A stretch of DNA of 64,000 bases. Origin: Aestuariibaculum sp. M13. Lineage in GTDB: Bacteria > Bacteroidota > Bacteroidia > Flavobacteriales > Flavobacteriaceae. The stretch lies in NCBI RefSeq assembly GCF_024723255.1, contig NZ_JANIAC010000001.1, positions 1,503,548 through 1,567,547 on the forward strand. Direction: 5' to 3'. The position numbers and the translations under genes are program-made. Of the stretch, positions 2,069 to 10,328 are shown in pieces (the stretch's first letter is position 1; every line of letters starts with the position of its first letter). Below the pieces are notes generated by a model. It had not been told where the DNA came from. It saw only the letters and a list, made by a program, of their open reading frames with translations, and did not search any database.

Positions 2069-2686
2069 TTAACAGCCACCTTCAGCTTTACGCTTCTTTT
2101 TCTTTTCAACTGTAATCACTTTTTTAGGCACATTTGCATTTGGTGGAACTATGGTATTAGAGCTGTCCAAATGCTTTTTTGAATCCATGATAAACCCATT
2201 AATATCGTAAGGAAGGCTTTCTATTTTGGATTCTTTGGTCATGAGTTTGTTTTGGGAATAACTGAGCTCTACAGGAAGGATTTTAAGATTATCGAAGCCT
2301 AATTGATATAAGATAAGAAAAGGAATGTTAGCTTCTTCGGGAGTGCTTCCGTAAAGCGCCGTTGTTGTATTGGATGTTTTTAGGTCCTGCAGTAGTTTTT
2401 GAGAGGCTTCACTCATAATATCTACAGAAGGCATGTTTATGGCATTTTCTAAATGGCCTTTGTTGTATTCAAAAGAGTTTCTAATGTCTATAAATGCCAC
2501 ATCTTCATTTTCAATAAGCGAATAGGGAAGGCAATAATCTGTGGAGGTGATTTTTTCCAAAGTGCTTTTGGTGTTGAAAGCATAGGTGTTTTTTGGGCGT
2601 TTGTAGGTTAAAAAACCTATTAGCACAGCCAAAATAAATAACGTGGCAGCAATGGATATTTGTTTGGTTTTCTCTAATTCTTTCAT
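2069..2686 (-). CDS. Membrane-anchored rhodanese-like protein lacking the catalytic Cys, with C-terminal GGC tail (copy 1)
   Basis: A 205-residue protein and the last gene of the seven-gene sulfur/redox operon. One membrane helix (about 10-27) should place the rest in the periplasm. A rhodanese-like fold spans about 50-140: FIDIRNSFEYNKGHLENAIN is the usual D-x-R...GH...A-x-N pattern. The loop that normally reads Cys-x-x-G-x-R reads ALYGSTPEEA, so residue 113 is Gly and the persulfide cysteine is missing. A flexible region then ends in KKVITVEKKKKRKAEGGC (188-205), with Cys as the last residue. The neighbouring gene ends in virtually the same tail. SoxY carries sulfur on a cysteine in a C-terminal Gly-Gly-Cys-Gly-Gly arm. 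By analogy I infer a sulfur-carrier arm; no such function is proven here. Confidence 0.8.
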   Translation of the reverse strand: MKELEKTKQISIAATLFILAVLIGFLTYKRPKNTYAFNTKSTLEKITSTDYCLPYSLIENEDVAFIDIRNSFEYNKGHLENAINMPSVDIMSEASQKLLQDLKTSNTTTALYGSTPEEANIPFLILYQLGFDNLKILPVELSYSQNKLMTKESKIESLPYDINGFIMDSKKHLDSSNTIVPPNANVPKKVITVEKKKKRKAEGGC

Positions 2687-2707
2687 AGTGTTAGGTTAAT
2701 TTTAGAT

Positions 2708-3352
2708 TTAACAACCGCCTTCAGCTTTACGTTTCTTTTTCTTTTCTACAGTAACTACTTTTTTAGGAGTTTCCGGTGTTGTTGGTAAGTCATTTCCAAA
2801 ATTCTGGTCTGGATATGCTACGCCATAATACATGCTGGCTGCTTTTCTTGTAGAATACAATTTAAATTCAGTTTCGGGCATGGCCTCATTTGGTTTTGAG
2901 GGATTGATTATGGTAGTATACCAGTTGTTGAGGCCTCCCTTTAAAACATGCAGATTTTTAAATCCTAAGCGATCGCATAACATCCAGGCCTGATCGGCTA
3001 GAAACGTGTTGTTAGAATAGAATACCACGTCAAACTGGTCTTGGTTGAGGTAAGTTAAAGAATCTTCATCCAACAATTTTGAAAGCGGAATATTAATGGC
3101 ATTGGGTAGGCTATAATTGTTATAGCTTTCTTCGTCTCTTACGTCTACCAAAATAAACGAAGGATCCTGGCTAATAATTTTATGTGAAATATCATCGGTC
3201 GAAATATAACGTTCCGGGCTGATGGCATGACTTAACAATTGTTTAGAGCGAATGCCTTCCTGTTTTTCATATTTTGGAAGCAATAGGAGTCCACCTGCTA
3301 AAATAATCAGTATGGCGCCCAGAATTAGATATCTGTTTGAAAGAAATTTCAT
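2708..3352 (-). CDS. Membrane-anchored rhodanese-like protein lacking the catalytic Cys, with C-terminal GGC tail (copy 2)
   Basis: A 214-residue protein, 21 nt upstream of its paralogue. The N-terminal helix is about residues 7-26. The rhodanese-like domain is clearer than in copy 1: FILVDVRDEESY, then NAINIP, then GFKNLHVLKGGLNNW (about 66-144). The active-site loop reads VVFYSNNTFLAD with Ser113 where Cys should be; the only other cysteine of the domain, C126, is outside the loop. After a spacer the protein ends in KKVVTVEKKKKRKAEGGC (197-214). Over the last 19 codons of the two genes there are seven nucleotide differences; six are silent and one gives Ile/Val, while the bodies of the proteins are very different. 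The tail is therefore likely to be the functional part. It is cotranscribed with YeeE/YedE transporters and a Psr-type molybdoenzyme. Confidence 0.82.
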   Translation of the reverse strand: MKFLSNRYLILGAILIILAGGLLLLPKYEKQEGIRSKQLLSHAISPERYISTDDISHKIISQDPSFILVDVRDEESYNNYSLPNAINIPLSKLLDEDSLTYLNQDQFDVVFYSNNTFLADQAWMLCDRLGFKNLHVLKGGLNNWYTTIINPSKPNEAMPETEFKLYSTRKAASMYYGVAYPDQNFGNDLPTTPETPKKVVTVEKKKKRKAEGGC

Positions 3353-3385: not shown

Positions 3386-3976
3386 TTAGTAAAACACACT
3401 TTTAATTTTTTTTCGAACCAAGTCGGCAATGCCAAAGGCCAGGACAGCAATAATGGCAAAAATAAAAATAACCCAATATGGATTCCAGCCAAAGGAGTCT
3501 ATCAGAGTAATGTTGCCAAAGTTATAACCATCGTATATAGGTTCAAAAAGATTGAAGAGTTCCGAAAATATAAAAACACCCACCATAATACCAAACACAT
3601 ATATCCAGGCATCTAATTTGCCTATAGCTACGGCACACAAACTTGTGCCCGGGCAGAAGCCTCCGGTAACAAAACCGGCACCCATAATAATGCCGCCTAT
3701 GATAGCTCCCCATAAGTAGGTGGGGTGCACATAAAGTTTAGAGATGTCCAAGTACCCTAAATAATCCATATAGTAAATGCCAATTACAGATACCGCTGCT
3801 GCCGTAAAAAATACTTTAAGTACAGCAAAGTCGTAACCGTAAAACACGCCGGCTAATTTTCTTGACGATGAAAAGCCCGAAGCTTCTAAGACAAAGCCAA
3901 AGGCGATTCCAATGAATATGGCTATAATGCTATCCCATTCTAAAGGGATGTAACCACCAGGAATTAAAGGTCCCAT
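3386..3976 (-). CDS. YeeE/YedE family transporter, half-size subunit (second half)
   Basis: A 196-residue integral membrane protein with about five to six helices. It carries GGFCPGTSLCAVAIGKLDAW (about 103-122), a form of the cysteine-containing signature of YeeE/YedE (DUF395) transporters. TsuA, a full-length relative, takes up thiosulfate through conserved cysteines. Here the protein has half the usual length, and the preceding gene encodes a second half. I infer that the two pair to move thiosulfate or another sulfane-sulfur compound across the inner membrane. The gene starts 18 nt after the other half and is followed by the two GGC-tailed rhodaneses. Confidence 0.85.
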   Translation of the reverse strand: MGPLIPGGYIPLEWDSIIAIFIGIAFGFVLEASGFSSSRKLAGVFYGYDFAVLKVFFTAAAVSVIGIYYMDYLGYLDISKLYVHPTYLWGAIIGGIIMGAGFVTGGFCPGTSLCAVAIGKLDAWIYVFGIMVGVFIFSELFNLFEPIYDGYNFGNITLIDSFGWNPYWVIFIFAIIAVLAFGIADLVRKKIKSVFY

Positions 3977-3994: not shown

Positions 3995-4525
3995 TTATAT
4001 CCAGTTCTTTCTAAAAAAATAAGCAAAGGCATAGGCAGATCCAAAAATGGAAAGCATAGTAAGGAAGCCTCCAGTAGACAACACCGCCATGCCACTTAAA
4101 GCGGCACCACTGGTACAGCCTCTTGCAATCTGAGCGCCCAATCCAAATAAGATACCTCCTATTAGCGCAAATATTAAACGACGCTTAGCCGTAATTTTAG
4201 GAGAGTGTTGAACGCGCCATTTGATGCGTCCGCTAATACTTCCCGAAATAAAGGCTCCTATTAAAATACCTAAGGCTTCATACACCAGCCAGGTGTTCAT
4301 AGGTGACTTGTCATCTGTTATAAACTGACTGTAATAACTGTTGCTTTCGGCATGTTTTGGAGCTACATTTTCAACCACCGTAACCACGCTACTTTTTATG
4401 GCACCACTGGCTCCCAGTCCTCTACCAGTAAGATAAAATGTAAAAATAATGATGATGCCTAAAAGGAATCCTCCAAAATACGGGTTCCAGTATTGGTGTG
4501 GGTTTGTTTTATATTTTGTATTCAT
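3995..4525 (-). CDS. YeeE/YedE family transporter, half-size subunit (first half)
   Basis: A 176-residue membrane protein with an N-terminal helix, a periplasmic-looking loop (about 40-75), and three further helices. The motif GLGAQIARGCTSGAALSGMA (about 132-151) is the classic YeeE/YedE G-C-T-S-G signature, with the cysteine thought to contact the sulfur substrate in TsuA. It lies 10 nt downstream of the NrfD-like subunit gene, so membrane redox complex and transporter are made together. The exact substrate cannot be read from sequence. Confidence 0.87.
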   Translation of the reverse strand: MNTKYKTNPHQYWNPYFGGFLLGIIIIFTFYLTGRGLGASGAIKSSVVTVVENVAPKHAESNSYYSQFITDDKSPMNTWLVYEALGILIGAFISGSISGRIKWRVQHSPKITAKRRLIFALIGGILFGLGAQIARGCTSGAALSGMAVLSTGGFLTMLSIFGSAYAFAYFFRKNWI

Positions 4526-4535
4526 AACAAATAAT

Positions 4536-5492
4536 TTAGTAAAGGTATCGTGTAAGTTGTCCTGCTTCTACCATAATAAATCTAAAAATGAGTCCGCCAA
4601 TTATAACTAAGGCAGCCGGCACGGCAACAGGGACTTTAAAGCCTAATAATTCAATAACTTCTAAAATAGCGGGTACGAGTAAGCCCAAAAGTATAACGAA
4701 GCCAAAAAACATGAGGGTGAATTCACCGCCTACTAAAAGATCCATCGCTTCCAGTTGCACTTGAGAACCTGCATAATAGCCCATAATCATGTGAATGATT
4801 AAAGCTATTTCTACTATAATAAGACCTAAATCTATTTTACTGAACAGATGACGTTCTTCTCTATTTCTTGACAACAAAATAATGGCTGCCGCTCCGGTCG
4901 ATAGTCCCGAGGTTAGAAATAAAGGTCCTAGAATGGCATTGTTCCATAAAGGTCGGGCATTGAATGCTGACAATAAAATACCGGTATAGACGCCTAAAAT
5001 TATGGATAGGGGAATTAGGGCGTATGCCATATAGGTTCTGTTGGTAATAAGGAATTTTTCAAATTTTTCTAGAAACTTAAATTTTTTAAAGAGTTTGAGT
5101 TTCGATTCCCATTTAGGGAAAGTGCTTCTGTAGAAGCTGAACAACCATAAAAAGGAAAGTGGGGTGGTAATGAGTAGTACCCAGGCTCCCCAGGACATCG
5201 GAGATTCTATCCTGAATGTGGTATATAATTGCCAGGTGTATAATGGATGTGTTAAATCGTAAACCAATGCTAATAAACCAACTGATAGGGCTATTGGAGG
5301 TATTACAGCCGCTGCTTTAAGCGCGGGATATTGTTTTTCTTTACCCATTAGGTAGAATAAAGCTGCAAAAAATAAGATGCCTGCAGCGAGTCCGCCTAGA
5401 AATAGGTATAAGGAGATGGGCCAATGCCAAATTTGTAATGAAGGATCAATGTTTGGAATGTTTCGGCCGCTTGTAAATAATTCTTCTTGCAT
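4536..5492 (-). CDS. NrfD/PsrC family membrane subunit of the molybdoenzyme complex
   Basis: A 318-residue, very hydrophobic protein with about eight to nine predicted helices. The N-terminal stretch WHWPISLYLFLGGLAAG is typical of NrfD/PsrC quinone-interacting anchors. In polysulfide reductase this subunit binds menaquinone and passes electrons through the ferredoxin subunit to the molybdenum site. It is the third gene of the operon, 12 nt after the ferredoxin subunit. Gene order (catalytic, ferredoxin, anchor) is that of PsrABC/PhsABC/TtrACB-type enzymes. Confidence 0.9.
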   Translation of the reverse strand: MQEELFTSGRNIPNIDPSLQIWHWPISLYLFLGGLAAGILFFAALFYLMGKEKQYPALKAAAVIPPIALSVGLLALVYDLTHPLYTWQLYTTFRIESPMSWGAWVLLITTPLSFLWLFSFYRSTFPKWESKLKLFKKFKFLEKFEKFLITNRTYMAYALIPLSIILGVYTGILLSAFNARPLWNNAILGPLFLTSGLSTGAAAIILLSRNREERHLFSKIDLGLIIVEIALIIHMIMGYYAGSQVQLEAMDLLVGGEFTLMFFGFVILLGLLVPAILEVIELLGFKVPVAVPAALVIIGGLIFRFIMVEAGQLTRYLY

Positions 5493-5504: not shown

Positions 5505-6038
5505 TTAAATGAGATAAAACACGTGGGGATCGGTCCCTGCCTCTGGAGATAGGGTTTTATATTTTCTGTTTTTCAACAATTGAGAAATTTCGCTATTAGG
5601 GTCGTCTAAATCACCAAAATACATGCATTTTGTTGGACATACAGACACGCAGGCAGGTAATTGTCCTTTTTCCAGTCGGTGATGACAAAAGGTGCATTTG
5701 TCTACATAACCGTCTGGGTGTTGGTATCGCGCATCGTAAGGACAGGATTCTATACAGGCGCCACATCCTATACATTGGTCGGCAGTTACTAATACAATGC
5801 CACCTTCAATAACATGACTGGCTCCTGTTGGGCAGCATCTTACACATGGTGGATTAGCACAATGGTTGCAGCGTTCAGAACGCAATTCCAGTTCCAGATT
5901 AGGGTAGGAGCCGCTAACAGCTTCAGTTACCCAATCCCTGCAATAGCCATGTGGCACATTGTTTTCTGTTTGGCAAGCCACGACACAATCACTGCAGCCA
6001 ACACATTTTAAGGTGTCTATCACCATTGCATATCTCAT
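5505..6038 (-). CDS. Four-cluster 4Fe-4S ferredoxin subunit (PsrB/DmsB type)
   Basis: A 177-residue electron-transfer subunit with four cysteine groups: CVGCSDCVVAC, CNHCANPPCVRCC, CIGCGACIESC and CTFCHHRLEKGQLPACVSVC. This is the standard layout for four [4Fe-4S] clusters in PsrB, PhsB, TtrB and DmsB subunits. There is no signal peptide, so it is expected to travel through the Tat system with its catalytic partner. Its start overlaps the stop of the catalytic subunit gene by 4 nt (ATGA), which suggests translational coupling. Confidence 0.93.
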   Translation of the reverse strand: MRYAMVIDTLKCVGCSDCVVACQTENNVPHGYCRDWVTEAVSGSYPNLELELRSERCNHCANPPCVRCCPTGASHVIEGGIVLVTADQCIGCGACIESCPYDARYQHPDGYVDKCTFCHHRLEKGQLPACVSVCPTKCMYFGDLDDPNSEISQLLKNRKYKTLSPEAGTDPHVFYLI

Positions 6039-8278
6039 ACCTTTGTGTTTTTATGTGGATCTTCGGTTAAAATAGAAACAAAGTTGCCTCTTAATCCGGT
6101 GCCACCCATTAGTGGATCTACGACAATCTGGGAAATAAGTTCGGCGTCACTCGCACCTTTCCCAAAGGCGCGGGTCAATTTTTTATTGTTATGGCCAAAG
6201 CCATGGTACATATATACAGAATCCCAGCGGATACGCTCTGTAACTCTTACTTTAATGGGGAATGCAGACAGAATGCCATCCTGATTTTTAAGCCAAACGG
6301 GCTGATCTTTTTTAAGGTCTAATATTCTGGCTACCTTAGGGTTGACCCAAAGGGTATTTTCACTTTTTAAATCGCTTAAATAAGGATTGTTAATGGTTCT
6401 GCTGAACGTGTGCATGGGAGACCTTCCGTAATTCAACCTGTAAAATCCTTGTGGAGGTTGTGGATGGTGCGTGTAGACAGGCATAGGATCAAATCCTAAA
6501 TCGGCCAATTGTTGCGAATAGAATTCTATTTTTCCGCTTGGGGTGCCGAATTCATAATCTTGTCCTTCTTCCAGGAATAATGGTCCAGAGGTTCTTTCGA
6601 AGTTCTTAACACCAATCTTTTTCATTTCATCCAAAGAAGTCCCCATTTTGTTGAGCTGCCATTCAATGACCTCCTCAAAATCGTTGTAATTGAAATAGTC
6701 GCCCAAACCAATGCGGTCACCAATTTGTTTGCTTATCCACCAGGCAGGTTTCGAATTGTATTTAGGTTTTACAGCAGGAATACGAACCGCAATTGATGGA
6801 TGTCTGTTGGTTGCAGAACGGATACCGTCATAACGTTCTAAATAGGTGCATTCTGGTAGTACTACATCCGCATAGCCTGTGATTTCCATTGGCATGGTAT
6901 CTACCACGACCAAAAATTCAAGAGCGTTAATTGCCTCAAGAGTTTGTTCTCGCTGAGGTAGTGTGTTGATTAAATTGGTGCCGGCAATCATCCATGCTTT
7001 TATAGGGTATGGATTGTCTTCATTAGGAATAGTCGCTTTGACTACTTCCGAAGTATTGCCCATTTCAGCAAATGGATATTGCTCACCTATTTCATGCCAA
7101 CCCCATTTTGGTTCTTGATAGGCTGGATGCGGATATTTTGGAATACTGATTTTTTCTTTAAAATAGAAGCCGCCTCGGTTACCCCAAGAGCCTAAAAGTC
7201 CATTTAAAATAGCAATGGCACGCTCGCGTTGCGAGTCGTCTCCATACCAGGTAACATGACGTCCTGGGTGAACTATAGTAGCCGGGGCTGCAGCTGCCAT
7301 AAGACGTGCCGTTTCCTTGATACTTTCCGGTTTTATGGTGGTGATGCCGTAGGCCCATTCTGGTGTAAATGGTTTTACGTGTGCTTTTAGTTCATCGAAG
7401 CCAATGGCATATTTTTCAACGTATTTTTTATTGTAAAGTTCTTCTTCTATCAACACATGCATCCAGGATAAAAGTAAGGCAATGTCGGTAGCGGGTTTGA
7501 TTGGTAACCAATGAGAAGATTTACTGGCTGCTGTAGAAAATCTCGGGTCTACCGTAATAATGGTAGCACCATTATCAATGGCATCCGACATTTCCTGAAC
7601 CTGTGTATTGTGCATATTCTCTCCAATGTGGGAACCAATAAGCACTAGACATTTGGTGTCTCTAATATCGGTAGGTTCAGGGGAGCCTACCCAAGAGCCA
7701 AAGGTTAGTCCGAAGCCTGTTTCCCTTGGGCCTCTGCACTGTGCGTAGGCAGGTTCGGCAATGGTATCGGAGCCATAGGCTTTAAAGAGGTGTTCTAAAT
7801 GACTTCCAGGAGAACCGTGTTTTAAAAGCGCGAAAGACTCGGGACCATATTTCTGTTTTATTTCAGTAAATTTTTCTGCAATCAGGTCTAAGGCTTCTTC
7901 CCAACTGGCTTCTCGGTAGGTTTCTTCGCCGTTTATGGTAGTTCTTATTAATGGGGTTTTCAGTCGATCTTCGTCACTGTACATACCAAGACCTCCAGTA
8001 CCTCTTGGACAGAGTCTTCCGTTGCAGTGTGGGTCGTCATCATTCCCTATCACTTTTTTAATATCTCCCTCTTCGTCTGTATAGGCCCATGCGGCACATT
8101 TCCAAAAGCATACCTCACAATAGGTAGCGGTTCTGGAAAGTTTTTTGGCAAGGTTCTTTTTTGCTGCAGCATCCAACAGAGGATTGGAGGCTAATAAATT
8201 GACAGCTGAAGCGGAAAGTGTTATTCCCCCTACCCCTAAAGCTGAAATTTTTATAAATTTTCGTCTGGAAGTCACCAT
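6035..8278 (-). CDS. Molybdopterin-dependent oxidoreductase catalytic subunit, Psr/Phs/Ttr-like
   Basis: A 747-residue protein and first gene of the operon. The N-terminus SRRKFIK followed by a hydrophobic stretch is a Tat signal, so the enzyme should act in the periplasm. Cysteines C54, C57, C61 and C90 bind the FS0 cluster. AQCRGPRETGF places C181 where polysulfide-reductase-type enzymes have their molybdenum-ligating cysteine (Cys173 in the Thermus enzyme). The C-terminal molybdopterin dinucleotide-binding domain is about 620-740. Relatives reduce polysulfide, thiosulfate or tetrathionate, and some oxidise sulfur compounds; direction and substrate are not decided by sequence. The YeeE/YedE and rhodanese-like neighbours favour sulfane-sulfur chemistry. 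Confidence 0.92.
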   Translation of the reverse strand: MVTSRRKFIKISALGVGGITLSASAVNLLASNPLLDAAAKKNLAKKLSRTATYCEVCFWKCAAWAYTDEEGDIKKVIGNDDDPHCNGRLCPRGTGGLGMYSDEDRLKTPLIRTTINGEETYREASWEEALDLIAEKFTEIKQKYGPESFALLKHGSPGSHLEHLFKAYGSDTIAEPAYAQCRGPRETGFGLTFGSWVGSPEPTDIRDTKCLVLIGSHIGENMHNTQVQEMSDAIDNGATIITVDPRFSTAASKSSHWLPIKPATDIALLLSWMHVLIEEELYNKKYVEKYAIGFDELKAHVKPFTPEWAYGITTIKPESIKETARLMAAAAPATIVHPGRHVTWYGDDSQRERAIAILNGLLGSWGNRGGFYFKEKISIPKYPHPAYQEPKWGWHEIGEQYPFAEMGNTSEVVKATIPNEDNPYPIKAWMIAGTNLINTLPQREQTLEAINALEFLVVVDTMPMEITGYADVVLPECTYLERYDGIRSATNRHPSIAVRIPAVKPKYNSKPAWWISKQIGDRIGLGDYFNYNDFEEVIEWQLNKMGTSLDEMKKIGVKNFERTSGPLFLEEGQDYEFGTPSGKIEFYSQQLADLGFDPMPVYTHHPQPPQGFYRLNYGRSPMHTFSRTINNPYLSDLKSENTLWVNPKVARILDLKKDQPVWLKNQDGILSAFPIKVRVTERIRWDSVYMYHGFGHNNKKLTRAFGKGASDAELISQIVVDPLMGGTGLRGNFVSILTEDPHKNTKV

Positions 8279-8441: not shown

Positions 8442-10328
8442 ATGAAAGAAAAGACTTATTTTCGATGGATTTTGATTCTGGCCGTATTGCTATTTGGCTT
8501 GCTTTATGTCGTAAGGCATGCAGATGCTTTTCGGTCTCATGAATTTATTGATGTACAATATGAAGGTAAGGCCGTATCCGAAGGAGAATCTTGCCTGCAG
8601 TGTCATCAGCAAACCAAAGGGTTTTCAGAATACCATAATCCGGAACTAATTGGTTGTGCCAATTGCCATCTAGGGAATACAGCTGATTTTAACAAAGCGG
8701 GAGCACATAAGGGTATGGTTTTGATACCCGGAAACTTGATAGATGCACAAAGGACCTGCGGAACATGTCATGCCAAAGAATTATACAATGTAGAGCACTC
8801 CCTAATGACGACCAATAGTGGTTTGGTGGCGGTCGATAAATTTGTGTTTGGAGAATCCGATAGTTTGAATGCCCATTACCATATTAAAGATTTGCAGTAT
8901 TCCGCCGCCGATAAACATTTACGGGATTTATGTGCCAATTGTCATTTAGGCGCTCAAAAAACCGATTATGGACCTATTACCCAATTAAGTCGTGGAGGAG
9001 GGTGTAATGCCTGTCATTTAAATTATTCACAACAGGCCAAAGCCGATCTTAACACCTATATAGCTTCTAACAAAATAAAGTTGCCAAAAGTGCACCCTTC
9101 CAGTGATGTGTTTATGGATGATACCCATTGTTTTGGATGTCACAGCCGATCTAGTAGAATTTCCACCAATTATATAGGGCTTCAGGAAACTTTACTGGAT
9201 GAATCTGATTTGCTTCACACCCAAGGCCATGTAGTTCTTGAAGATAAAAGAGTTTATAAGCAGTTACAGGAAGATGTGCACCATACTAAGGGTTTACTTT
9301 GTATAGATTGTCATTCTTCACATGAGGTGATGGGAGATGGAAAGACCTATGCCCATGCCGAAGATGCCGTAACCCTGCAATGCGGCGATTGCCATTTCAA
9401 ATCTAAACCTCGAACAGTTCCTTTTAATTCCATTGATAGAGAAAGCCGATTGGTTTATTTGCACAGGGGATATAAGCATTCCGACAAAGAAATATTTATA
9501 ACAGAAAAAGATGGACACCCTTTAATAAATGCCTATATGGATTCTTTGGGTAATGCCTTTTTAATAGGGAAAAAGGACCAGAAATTACATCCTTTAGCAC
9601 CGCAATCGGAGGTTTGTTCTCGGGATAATGCTCATAAAAATGTGAGCTGTAGTGCCTGTCATTCCTCGTGGACACCACGCTGTATTGGTTGTCATAATAA
9701 GTTTGATGGTAATGAGGCGCAGGCTTTCGATTTGTTGGATAAGAAGCTTGTTAAAGGTCAATGGAAGGAATATGTGGCTGAGTTTTCTGCATCATTACCA
9801 GCATTGGGAGTTAGGGAACACGAGGAAGAAAACATCATTGAACCGGCGATTCCCGGGATGGTCATGACCATAGACAAAGGAAGTTATAGTGGGCATCCGG
9901 ATTCCGATGTGTCTTTTCATAGGCTTTTTGCTCCAAATGCCCCACATACCACTACTAAAGCCGTTCGCGACTGTAAATCATGCCATGCCAACCCTTATAC
10001 TCTAGGCTATGGCAATGGAAACTTGGTTTATTATATAAATCAAGGAAAAGGAGAATGGGTGTTTACCCCAGAATATGCCTTGAATGCGCATGATGGTTTA
10101 CCTGAAGATGCCTGGGTGCCTTTTATGAAGCAAGGCAAAGGGCAAGCTTCAACTTCTACACGAACCAATTTCAGACCTTTTAATATTAAAGAGCAACAGC
10201 GTTTGTTGTTTGTTGGTGCCTGTTTACAGTGTCATAACGATACTTCCAAAGTTATGCAACAAACTTTAGAAGAGGGGTTGCAGGCCAGTTTAAAGCGATT
10301 GAGTAAGGCTTGTATTTTACCTGAGTAA
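8442..10328 (+). CDS. Dodecahaem c-type cytochrome
   Basis: A 628-residue protein with one N-terminal hydrophobic helix (about 9-25; signal or anchor) and twelve Cys-x-x-Cys-His haem motifs. In order they are CLQCH, CANCH, CGTCH, CANCH, CNACH, CFGCH, CIDCH, CGDCH, CSACH, CIGCH, CKSCH and CLQCH. It should be an exported electron carrier or multihaem oxidoreductase. It is divergent from the Psr-type operon and shares its regulatory gap, so it is a plausible electron partner or a second sulfur- or nitrogen-oxyanion enzyme. I do not recognise a named family such as NrfA or octahaem tetrathionate reductase. The C-terminus has no sorting domain. Confidence 0.88.
   Translation: MKEKTYFRWILILAVLLFGLLYVVRHADAFRSHEFIDVQYEGKAVSEGESCLQCHQQTKGFSEYHNPELIGCANCHLGNTADFNKAGAHKGMVLIPGNLIDAQRTCGTCHAKELYNVEHSLMTTNSGLVAVDKFVFGESDSLNAHYHIKDLQYSAADKHLRDLCANCHLGAQKTDYGPITQLSRGGGCNACHLNYSQQAKADLNTYIASNKIKLPKVHPSSDVFMDDTHCFGCHSRSSRISTNYIGLQETLLDESDLLHTQGHVVLEDKRVYKQLQEDVHHTKGLLCIDCHSSHEVMGDGKTYAHAEDAVTLQCGDCHFKSKPRTVPFNSIDRESRLVYLHRGYKHSDKEIFITEKDGHPLINAYMDSLGNAFLIGKKDQKLHPLAPQSEVCSRDNAHKNVSCSACHSSWTPRCIGCHNKFDGNEAQAFDLLDKKLVKGQWKEYVAEFSASLPALGVREHEEENIIEPAIPGMVMTIDKGSYSGHPDSDVSFHRLFAPNAPHTTTKAVRDCKSCHANPYTLGYGNGNLVYYINQGKGEWVFTPEYALNAHDGLPEDAWVPFMKQGKGQASTSTRTNFRPFNIKEQQRLLFVGACLQCHNDTSKVMQQTLEEGLQASLKRLSKACILPE

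Follow-up and report, generated by a model that had tools for sequence, protein, structure and literature searches.

Rhodanese-like proteins with a near-terminal cysteine on a mostly basic arm beside a split YeeE channel: candidate periplasmic sulfur carriers of Bacteroidota

An operon in the window (the whole stretch of 64,000 nucleotides that was analysed) raises the question of how periplasmic enzymes and YeeE-type channels pass sulfane sulfur to one another. Its genes are ordered PsrA, PsrB, PsrC, YeeE C-half, YeeE N-half, Rhd1 and Rhd2, with a 12-heme cytochrome encoded divergently:

2069..2686, minus strand: Rhd2, second rhodanese-like protein (205 aa ORF, Pfam Rhodanese, AF2 core)
2072..2128, minus strand: Rhd2 tail, last 19 codons, PKKVITVEKKKKRKAEGGC
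2708..3352, minus strand: Rhd1, membrane-anchored rhodanese-like protein (214 aa ORF, Pfam Rhodanese, alignment, loop position)
2711..2767, minus strand: Rhd1 tail, last 19 codons, PKKVVTVEKKKKRKAEGGC
3386..3976, minus strand: YeeE/YedE channel N-terminal half, Cys in GGFCPGTS (Pfam Sulf_transp 66.3 bits, alignment)
3995..4525, minus strand: YeeE/YedE channel C-terminal half, Cys in RGCTSG (Pfam Sulf_transp 91.9 bits)
4536..5492, minus strand: PsrC-like quinone-binding membrane subunit, NrfD family (Pfam NrfD 163.2 bits)
5505..6038, minus strand: PsrB-like iron-sulfur subunit (Pfam Fer4_11 84.9 bits)
6035..8278, minus strand: PsrA-like molybdopterin subunit (648 bits to 2vpw_A over residues 4-736)
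8442..10328, plus strand: multiheme c-type cytochrome, ExtM-like, divergent, 12 CXXCH (NCBIfam ExtM 228.7 bits, below the cut-off of 800)

The nearest kin of the window PsrA is the Thermus polysulfide/thiosulfate reductase (PsrA, 2vpw); the protein scores 477 bits against NCBIfam PhsA, below the cut-off of 694, and its N-terminus carries SRRKFIKIS, presumably a twin-arginine type motif. Together with the B and C subunits of the same operon it makes up a PsrABC enzyme, for which the substrate assignment is predicted. Each YeeE/YedE half has a PF04143 domain and a conserved cysteine; the C-half is alignable to the TsuA structures 8k1r/6leo, and a PDB profile search with the N-half returned no matches. 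These channel cysteines are conserved, with CPG in 87/87 YeeE N-halves and GC.SG in 87/87 C-halves. The TusA family (PF01206), which normally supplies YeeE with a partner in the cytoplasm, has no match in the Aestuariibaculum genome (the control matched in 11/14 genomes). A SoxY search of this genome gave no match, and its control likewise matched nowhere. The ExtM-like 12-heme cytochrome stands at the same place in many relatives within the family; ExtM itself, which it matches below the cut-off, belongs to a Geobacter selenite/tellurite operon. Adjoining the operon, at 107-2011 on the plus strand, is a gene whose product matches the C-terminal domain of peptide-N-glycosidase F (58 bits).

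The open reading frames of Rhd1 and Rhd2 lie on the minus strand where the first-pass annotation had placed them. Each has a single hydrophobic N-terminal helix, that of Rhd1 being present also in its poor AF2 model (pLDDT 46, set aside), and a Pfam Rhodanese domain (PF00581; 54.8 bits in Rhd1 and 40.8 bits in Rhd2, cut-off 22.2), and Foldseek matches the Rhd2 model best to proteins with a rhodanese domain. An active rhodanese has a catalytic cysteine in its active-site loop; here that position is Ser113 in Rhd1, aligned to the loop cysteine of the solved rhodanese 6mxv, and Gly113 in Rhd2, by alignment, as had been read from the sequence at the outset. Besides the terminal cysteine, each protein has one extra, non-loop cysteine. 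The high divergence claimed for the domains also holds, 44/179 aligned residues being identical once the last 19 are removed. Pfam finds Rhodanese only, and no SoxY domain (PF13501), in the two proteins; none of the four proteins of this type tested against NCBIfam was named by a model, all matches being below cut-off, and the closest named relatives found are from Mangrovimonas.

Both proteins terminate in a lysine-rich tail ending EGGC, in which 18/19 residues are identical, and recounting the last 19 codons reproduced the seven nucleotide differences reported earlier, six of them silent and one a Val/Ile change. In the AF2 model of Rhd2 the core blocks have a pLDDT of 78-91 and the tail blocks 42-48, as would be expected of a flexible arm. 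A short C-terminal motif common to divergent, differently built proteins might be a sorting or processing signal, a reading that we find barely credible: a search of the own genome with 21 residues of tail hit only the Rhd1 and Rhd2 sites at E <= 10 (weak copies could escape so short a query), the tail is retained by fused forms that are already multi-pass membrane proteins (see below), and the cysteine is last or second-last with varying neighbours.

We propose, from comparison of sequences, that the pair probably act as periplasmic swinging-arm sulfur carriers, SoxY-like in action and built from a rhodanese. In this scheme the rhodanese fold without its loop cysteine would be a membrane-anchored scaffold, and the thiol at work would be that of the near-terminal cysteine, carried by a C-terminal arm that is flexible and mostly basic and whose basic stretch would attract anionic sulfur species. 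The arm cysteine would take up sulfane sulfur as Cys-S-S(n), the source being polysulfide, thiosulfate or persulfide, and shuttle it between two sites. One would be the sulfur enzyme that the operon supplies in the periplasm, namely PsrABC here and, in relatives, either an octaheme cytochrome or a double rhodanese; the other would be the relay of cysteines in the split YeeE. Transport could run either way, feeding Psr or importing.

That the tail might be found only in this genome, a possibility that the first-pass annotation had raised against its own reading, is excluded by a search of 299 genomes of the family with an Rhd1 profile: 25 of them, the own genome included, have a match (E <= 1e-20), and in 25/25 of these Rhd1 proteins the last or second-last residue is a cysteine. 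A second armed protein, that is, one with such a tail, adjoins Rhd1 in 23 of the 25. The exceptions are L079, whose Rhd1 retains the tail and whose Rhd2 ends without it, a tail really lost, and L078, in whose Rhd2 (8900-9712) the frame breaks near the lysine codons and leaves the tail frameshifted, by either a sequencing error or a genuine frameshift. Homologues in the same context without the terminal cysteine, likewise named at the outset as speaking against a carrier, therefore exist as these two Rhd2 proteins and are absent from the remaining family genomes among the 25. At the level of the phylum, the profile, which includes the tail and several of whose matches stop short of it (e.g. 18-180 or 49-185 of 220), matched in 31/395 genomes (E <= 1e-18); loci were taken from 30, of which 27 are new, all 27 with the near-terminal cysteine, and the 31st genome (G450, locus L161) has the tail KAKRDGC. 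Searches of a plasmid collection gave two records. One, from Gemmatirosa (phylum Gemmatimonadota), holds a trio of YeeE-C, YeeE-N and a rhodanese with a loop Ser and the tail RLRRRGC, in which arginine stands where lysine stands in the Bacteroidota arms; the other, from Sulfuricella, holds a DUF6691/YeeE pair, and 0/7 of the annotated genes shown there are named rhodanese (judged by names only). The near-terminal cysteine of the armed proteins is beyond chance, since 0/410 other proteins at the fetched loci (those matching the operon models) end in Cys or Cys plus one residue.

To avoid picking loci by their tails, the 395 phylum genomes were also searched with the YeeE N-half, and rhodanese domains were recognized with a model built after trimming the last 60 residues. 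The 81 rows obtained fall into two classes separated by a wide gap, a strong one of 67 at E <= 6.3e-56 and a weak one of 14 at E >= 3.3e-27. The surroundings of 66 strong-class rows were read, and the 67th (G642) was read as locus L109. The first-pass annotation had expected YeeE/YedE and Psr genes to go together with the arm, and the two classes support this: a near-terminal-Cys rhodanese is directly downstream of, or fused to, the YeeE half in 66/67 strong-class loci, versus 0/14 weak-class loci with an armed rhodanese within the 6.5-13 kb fetched (L192 lying at a contig end). In the remaining strong-class locus (L136) a near-terminal-Cys rhodanese stands in another frame behind an apparent frameshift, and in the weak-class loci L178 and L179 a metallo-beta-lactamase-fold/rhodanese protein adjoins YeeE.

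YeeE-C is nearby in 66/66 strong-class loci, and in 35 of the 66 the YeeE half and the armed rhodanese are one fused protein, which supports the tie between arm and channel that had been suggested. In 34/66 loci the fused form stands near an octaheme cytochrome, a cytochrome b561 or both; 25 have Psr subunits (1 fused and 24 separate, the frameshifted one included), one has separate genes with an octaheme cytochrome, and six have separate genes with neither Psr nor octaheme cytochrome, one of these (L117) on a short contig. The one octaheme protein tested belongs to the tetrathionate reductase family (TIGR04315, 567.7 bits, cut-off 375). Loci such as L100 (9706-10902) and L101 (9097-10287), in which a YeeE N-half, a dead rhodanese and a Cys tail are joined and adjoin this type of cytochrome and cytochrome b561, form a second sulfur module of the phylum.

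The arm occurs with three different sulfur systems, namely PsrABC, octaheme cytochrome plus cytochrome b561, and double rhodanese. Five loci have YeeE and arm and neither Psr nor octaheme cytochrome within the fetched 13-14 kb, and in all five the armed gene directly follows a rhodanese gene. In the preceding protein Pfam recognizes two or three stretches of rhodanese in L165, L172 and L171, as also in Gemmatirosa, and one in the shorter L159 ORF; L162 has a similar protein with a loop that looks canonical by eye, and the export signals of these preceding rhodaneses were likewise judged by eye. Conversely, two genomes (G223 and G181) hold Psr and both arms without the strong YeeE class, G181 having no match and G223 one weak match (1.4e-7). 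These two genomes and the five loci without Psr or octaheme cytochrome indicate that no single partner explains all cases; the arm is the constant, and enzyme and channel vary.

The same material bears on a different role for the arm, which would then be immobile and lend the split YeeE one more cysteine: the rhodanese would cap the periplasmic mouth and the terminal cysteine would extend the relay, as YeeD does from the cytoplasmic side. The 35 fusions among 66 loci would suit such a role, as would an arm that was found with the strong YeeE class and not, within the stretches fetched, with the weak one, the lack of a TusA-family match in the own genome, and the proposal, in the excerpted text of PMC11073785, that the YeeD cysteine is the 'fourth cysteine' of YeeE. 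We nevertheless regard it as unlikely, because both arms are present in G223 and G181, which lack this class of YeeE, and the third armed rhodanese of L093 and L094 is a canonical one with its loop cysteine.

A system for selenium or tellurium oxyanions or for metal(loid)s, with the cysteine as a metal(loid) ligand, is very unlikely in our estimate. It could be argued from the divergent cytochrome, whose relative ExtM is of a selenite/tellurite operon (228.7 bits, below cut-off), from the MerR-family regulators that adjoin several of the phylum loci, and from a YeeE/YedE selenoprotein with GUxSG tabulated in PMC13188914, a motif that looks like the YeeE-C site. The enzymes themselves point to sulfur instead: PsrA is nearest to the Thermus polysulfide/thiosulfate reductase, the octaheme neighbour (one protein tested) is of the tetrathionate reductase family, and double rhodaneses adjoin armed-rhodanese loci. 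The MerR-family regulators are found upstream of Psr or octaheme operons in distant relatives (L099, L102, L103, L143 and others), the call being made by Pfam in L103 and by model matches elsewhere.

A carrier arm of the kind proposed should lie in the periplasm, and we infer from sequence features that it probably does. A lipobox is present in 3/77 stand-alone armed proteins (Rhd1 of L091 and one protein each in L093 and L094), and the start of PsrA is of an export type. Lysine and arginine are more numerous before than after the anchor helix in 38/60 stand-alone proteins not of the Rhd2 type (fewer in 11) and in 27/35 fused proteins (fewer in 4). The 17 Rhd2-type anchors give no clear signal by this charge rule (7 more, 6 equal, 4 fewer).

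The first-pass annotation went further and suggested that the thiol had moved from loop to arm. Its first half stands almost throughout: the loop residue in the 66 strong-class loci is Ala in 24, Ser in 22, Gly in 16, Asp in one, Cys in two and, in one that the script left unread (L133), Ser by eye, so that the loop cysteine is absent from 64/66, and the two loci retaining it (G327 and G416) belong to one genus. The near-terminal cysteine is the sole cysteine in 51/77 distinct stand-alone armed proteins; therefore thiol chemistry, if there is any in these, would be on the arm. Among the distinct rhodanese matches of L072-L181, loci that were picked for armed proteins, for which reason a Fisher p-value was set aside, 109 have the tail and no loop cysteine, 5 have neither, 23 have the loop cysteine and no tail, 6 have both, and one has the tail with its loop unread. 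Of the six with both, that of L082 (APGCD) is most likely due to chance. The other five armed proteins have arm and loop cysteine together; an arm need not mean that the loop cysteine was replaced, and here the idea of a moved thiol fails as a general rule.

A third rhodanese, of the canonical type with a loop cysteine, shares its last 16 residues with its two neighbours in L093 and L094, and L079 has a similar third protein ending in QEGGC. In a tree of 82/153 domain rows (randomly thinned within groups, built by a quick method, with many open forks and used for nesting only), the armed canonical rhodaneses of L079, L093 and L094 nest among canonical ones (fork supports 85, 84 and 92); an independent-pairs test of loop cysteine against tail on this tree has 3-4 pairs, too few to bear on the question. 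The arm looks like a portable part. Separately, two loop-cysteine rhodaneses of about 330 aa follow the operon in L013 (7612-10715), L074, L076, L080, L082-L084 and L087-L090; they are Pfam-backed in L013, where there is also a phosphate-selective-type porin, and are not beside the window operon.

The arms end mostly in -EGGC, -EGC or -GGC, and also in GGC plus one residue, RMGC, RFQC or GGLCS. Most of them are basic: over the last 20 residues the net charge averages +4.7 in 116 armed proteins versus +1.2 in the 410 other proteins of the same loci, and it is +2 or less in 13/116 tails. What is nearly invariant in relatives is the near-terminal cysteine; the glutamate and lysines, which the first-pass annotation had put into its tail pattern, are typical and not essential, relatives having tails such as AAGGGDEGC and EEEDLRFQC. 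Its suggestion that selection keeps the tail fares better. Pooled over five genome pairs with two proteins each, pN/pS is 0.150 for the tail (last 12 codons), 0.311 for the linker and 0.288 for the domain, values that are rough and usable only when pooled, since in most pairs the synonymous sites have nearly saturated, and that leave out a very close sixth pair (L072/L073), also computed. One of the five pairs, L080/L082, departs from this pattern, with tail dN (0.217, 0.311) about equal to domain dN (0.200, 0.336).

Within a genome the two tails are more alike than their wider diversity would suggest: own Rhd1 and Rhd2 tails agree at 15.7/19 positions versus 10.3 with shuffled partners (23 pairs, from 23 of the 25 genomes, L078 and L079 being skipped for one missing tail), a level reached in 0/10000 shuffles, which ignore kinship, and in 10/23 genomes the paralogue tail is closer than any orthologue tail. 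Gene conversion was considered and rejected as the main cause: codon usage alone predicts 187.7 identical codons of 357, and 207 were counted (z 2.2). As this excess in codon identity is slight, the likeness lies mostly in the protein sequence. Some conversion between paired tails is likely, given the raised codon identity of L094 (16/19, z 3.3) and, less so, of L092 (z 2.0), and an old conversion followed by silent saturation may lie behind the match. Arms that share an operon may all dock at one binding site.

A matching pair of tails is also what a pairing surface would show, and the near-terminal cysteine is often the only one in the protein; both would agree with a terminal cysteine that carries no sulfur and forms a structural disulfide or a tether (Rhd1 to Rhd2, within a homodimer, or to a membrane partner). 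Such a role is quite unlikely in our view: the strong-class loci outside the family, those that were read, hold one armed protein each, a protein fused to YeeE has no need of a tether, either to the channel or to the membrane, and we know of nothing like it in rhodaneses.

Returning to the carrier reading, its wider form is about an even bet on present sequence data: the dead rhodanese arm may be the common carrier of a widespread and so far unrecognised periplasmic module, linking three unrelated sulfur enzymes to the split YeeE and filling in Bacteroidota the role of SoxY (and, on the other side, of YeeD/TusA), with an arm portable enough to have been acquired by canonical rhodaneses of the same operon. 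If the arm carries sulfur, it would add a swinging-arm carrier unrelated to SoxY or DsrC and would explain a large group of rhodanese-like proteins without a catalytic cysteine, and a dead loop plus a near-terminal cysteine beside a split YeeE would become a sequence mark for such sulfur metabolism.

The closest parallel in action is SoxY of SoxYZ, a periplasmic protein with its thiol on a flexible, glycine-flanked C-terminal arm (GGCGG). The armed rhodaneses also have a conserved near-terminal cysteine beside glycine, a likeness of action and not membership, whereas their body is a membrane-anchored rhodanese fold and their tail is mostly basic. In lucinid symbionts, according to excerpts of PMC11237559, soxY genes adjoin an octaheme tetrathionate reductase and, in another copy, lie near YeeE/D. 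These neighbours are of the same kinds as those of the armed rhodaneses, which supports likeness of action without kinship.

Sud is a rhodanese-fold protein that serves a Psr enzyme and has a loop cysteine; PDB entry 1qxn, which we take to be Sud, the polysulfide-sulfur transferase of Wolinella, is matched very weakly (E 0.01, 18.8 bits). Fold and, on our reading, service to Psr are alike, and the difference is a loop cysteine in Sud versus an arm cysteine in the window pair. DsrC/TusE carries sulfur on the near-terminal cysteine of a flexible arm, in the cytoplasm and on a different fold; here the arm is alike, and presumed location and fold differ. The thiosulfate uptake system YeeE(TsuA)-YeeD(TsuB), as described in the excerpted text of PMC11073785, likewise combines a YeeE cysteine relay with a partner cysteine, whereas the window has a YeeE in two halves with an armed rhodanese, presumably periplasmic, as its proposed partner, in a genome that gave no TusA-family match. 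PmpA/PmpB are two YeeE half-proteins with the positions of Cys293 and Cys91 (excerpts of PMC11582611), and differ in that the weak YeeE class, taken as the PmpAB type, is without an armed rhodanese in 14/14 loci. A rhodanese in a Psr operon has already been described, as a triple-domain, predicted lipoprotein (excerpts of PMC12142623). Neither Cys-tailed rhodaneses nor fusions of YeeE with a rhodanese are described in the portions of the open-licence literature covered by our search. Split YeeE halves, a rhodanese in a Psr operon and swinging-arm carriers are thus each known; what appears new is such an arm on an unrelated rhodanese body.
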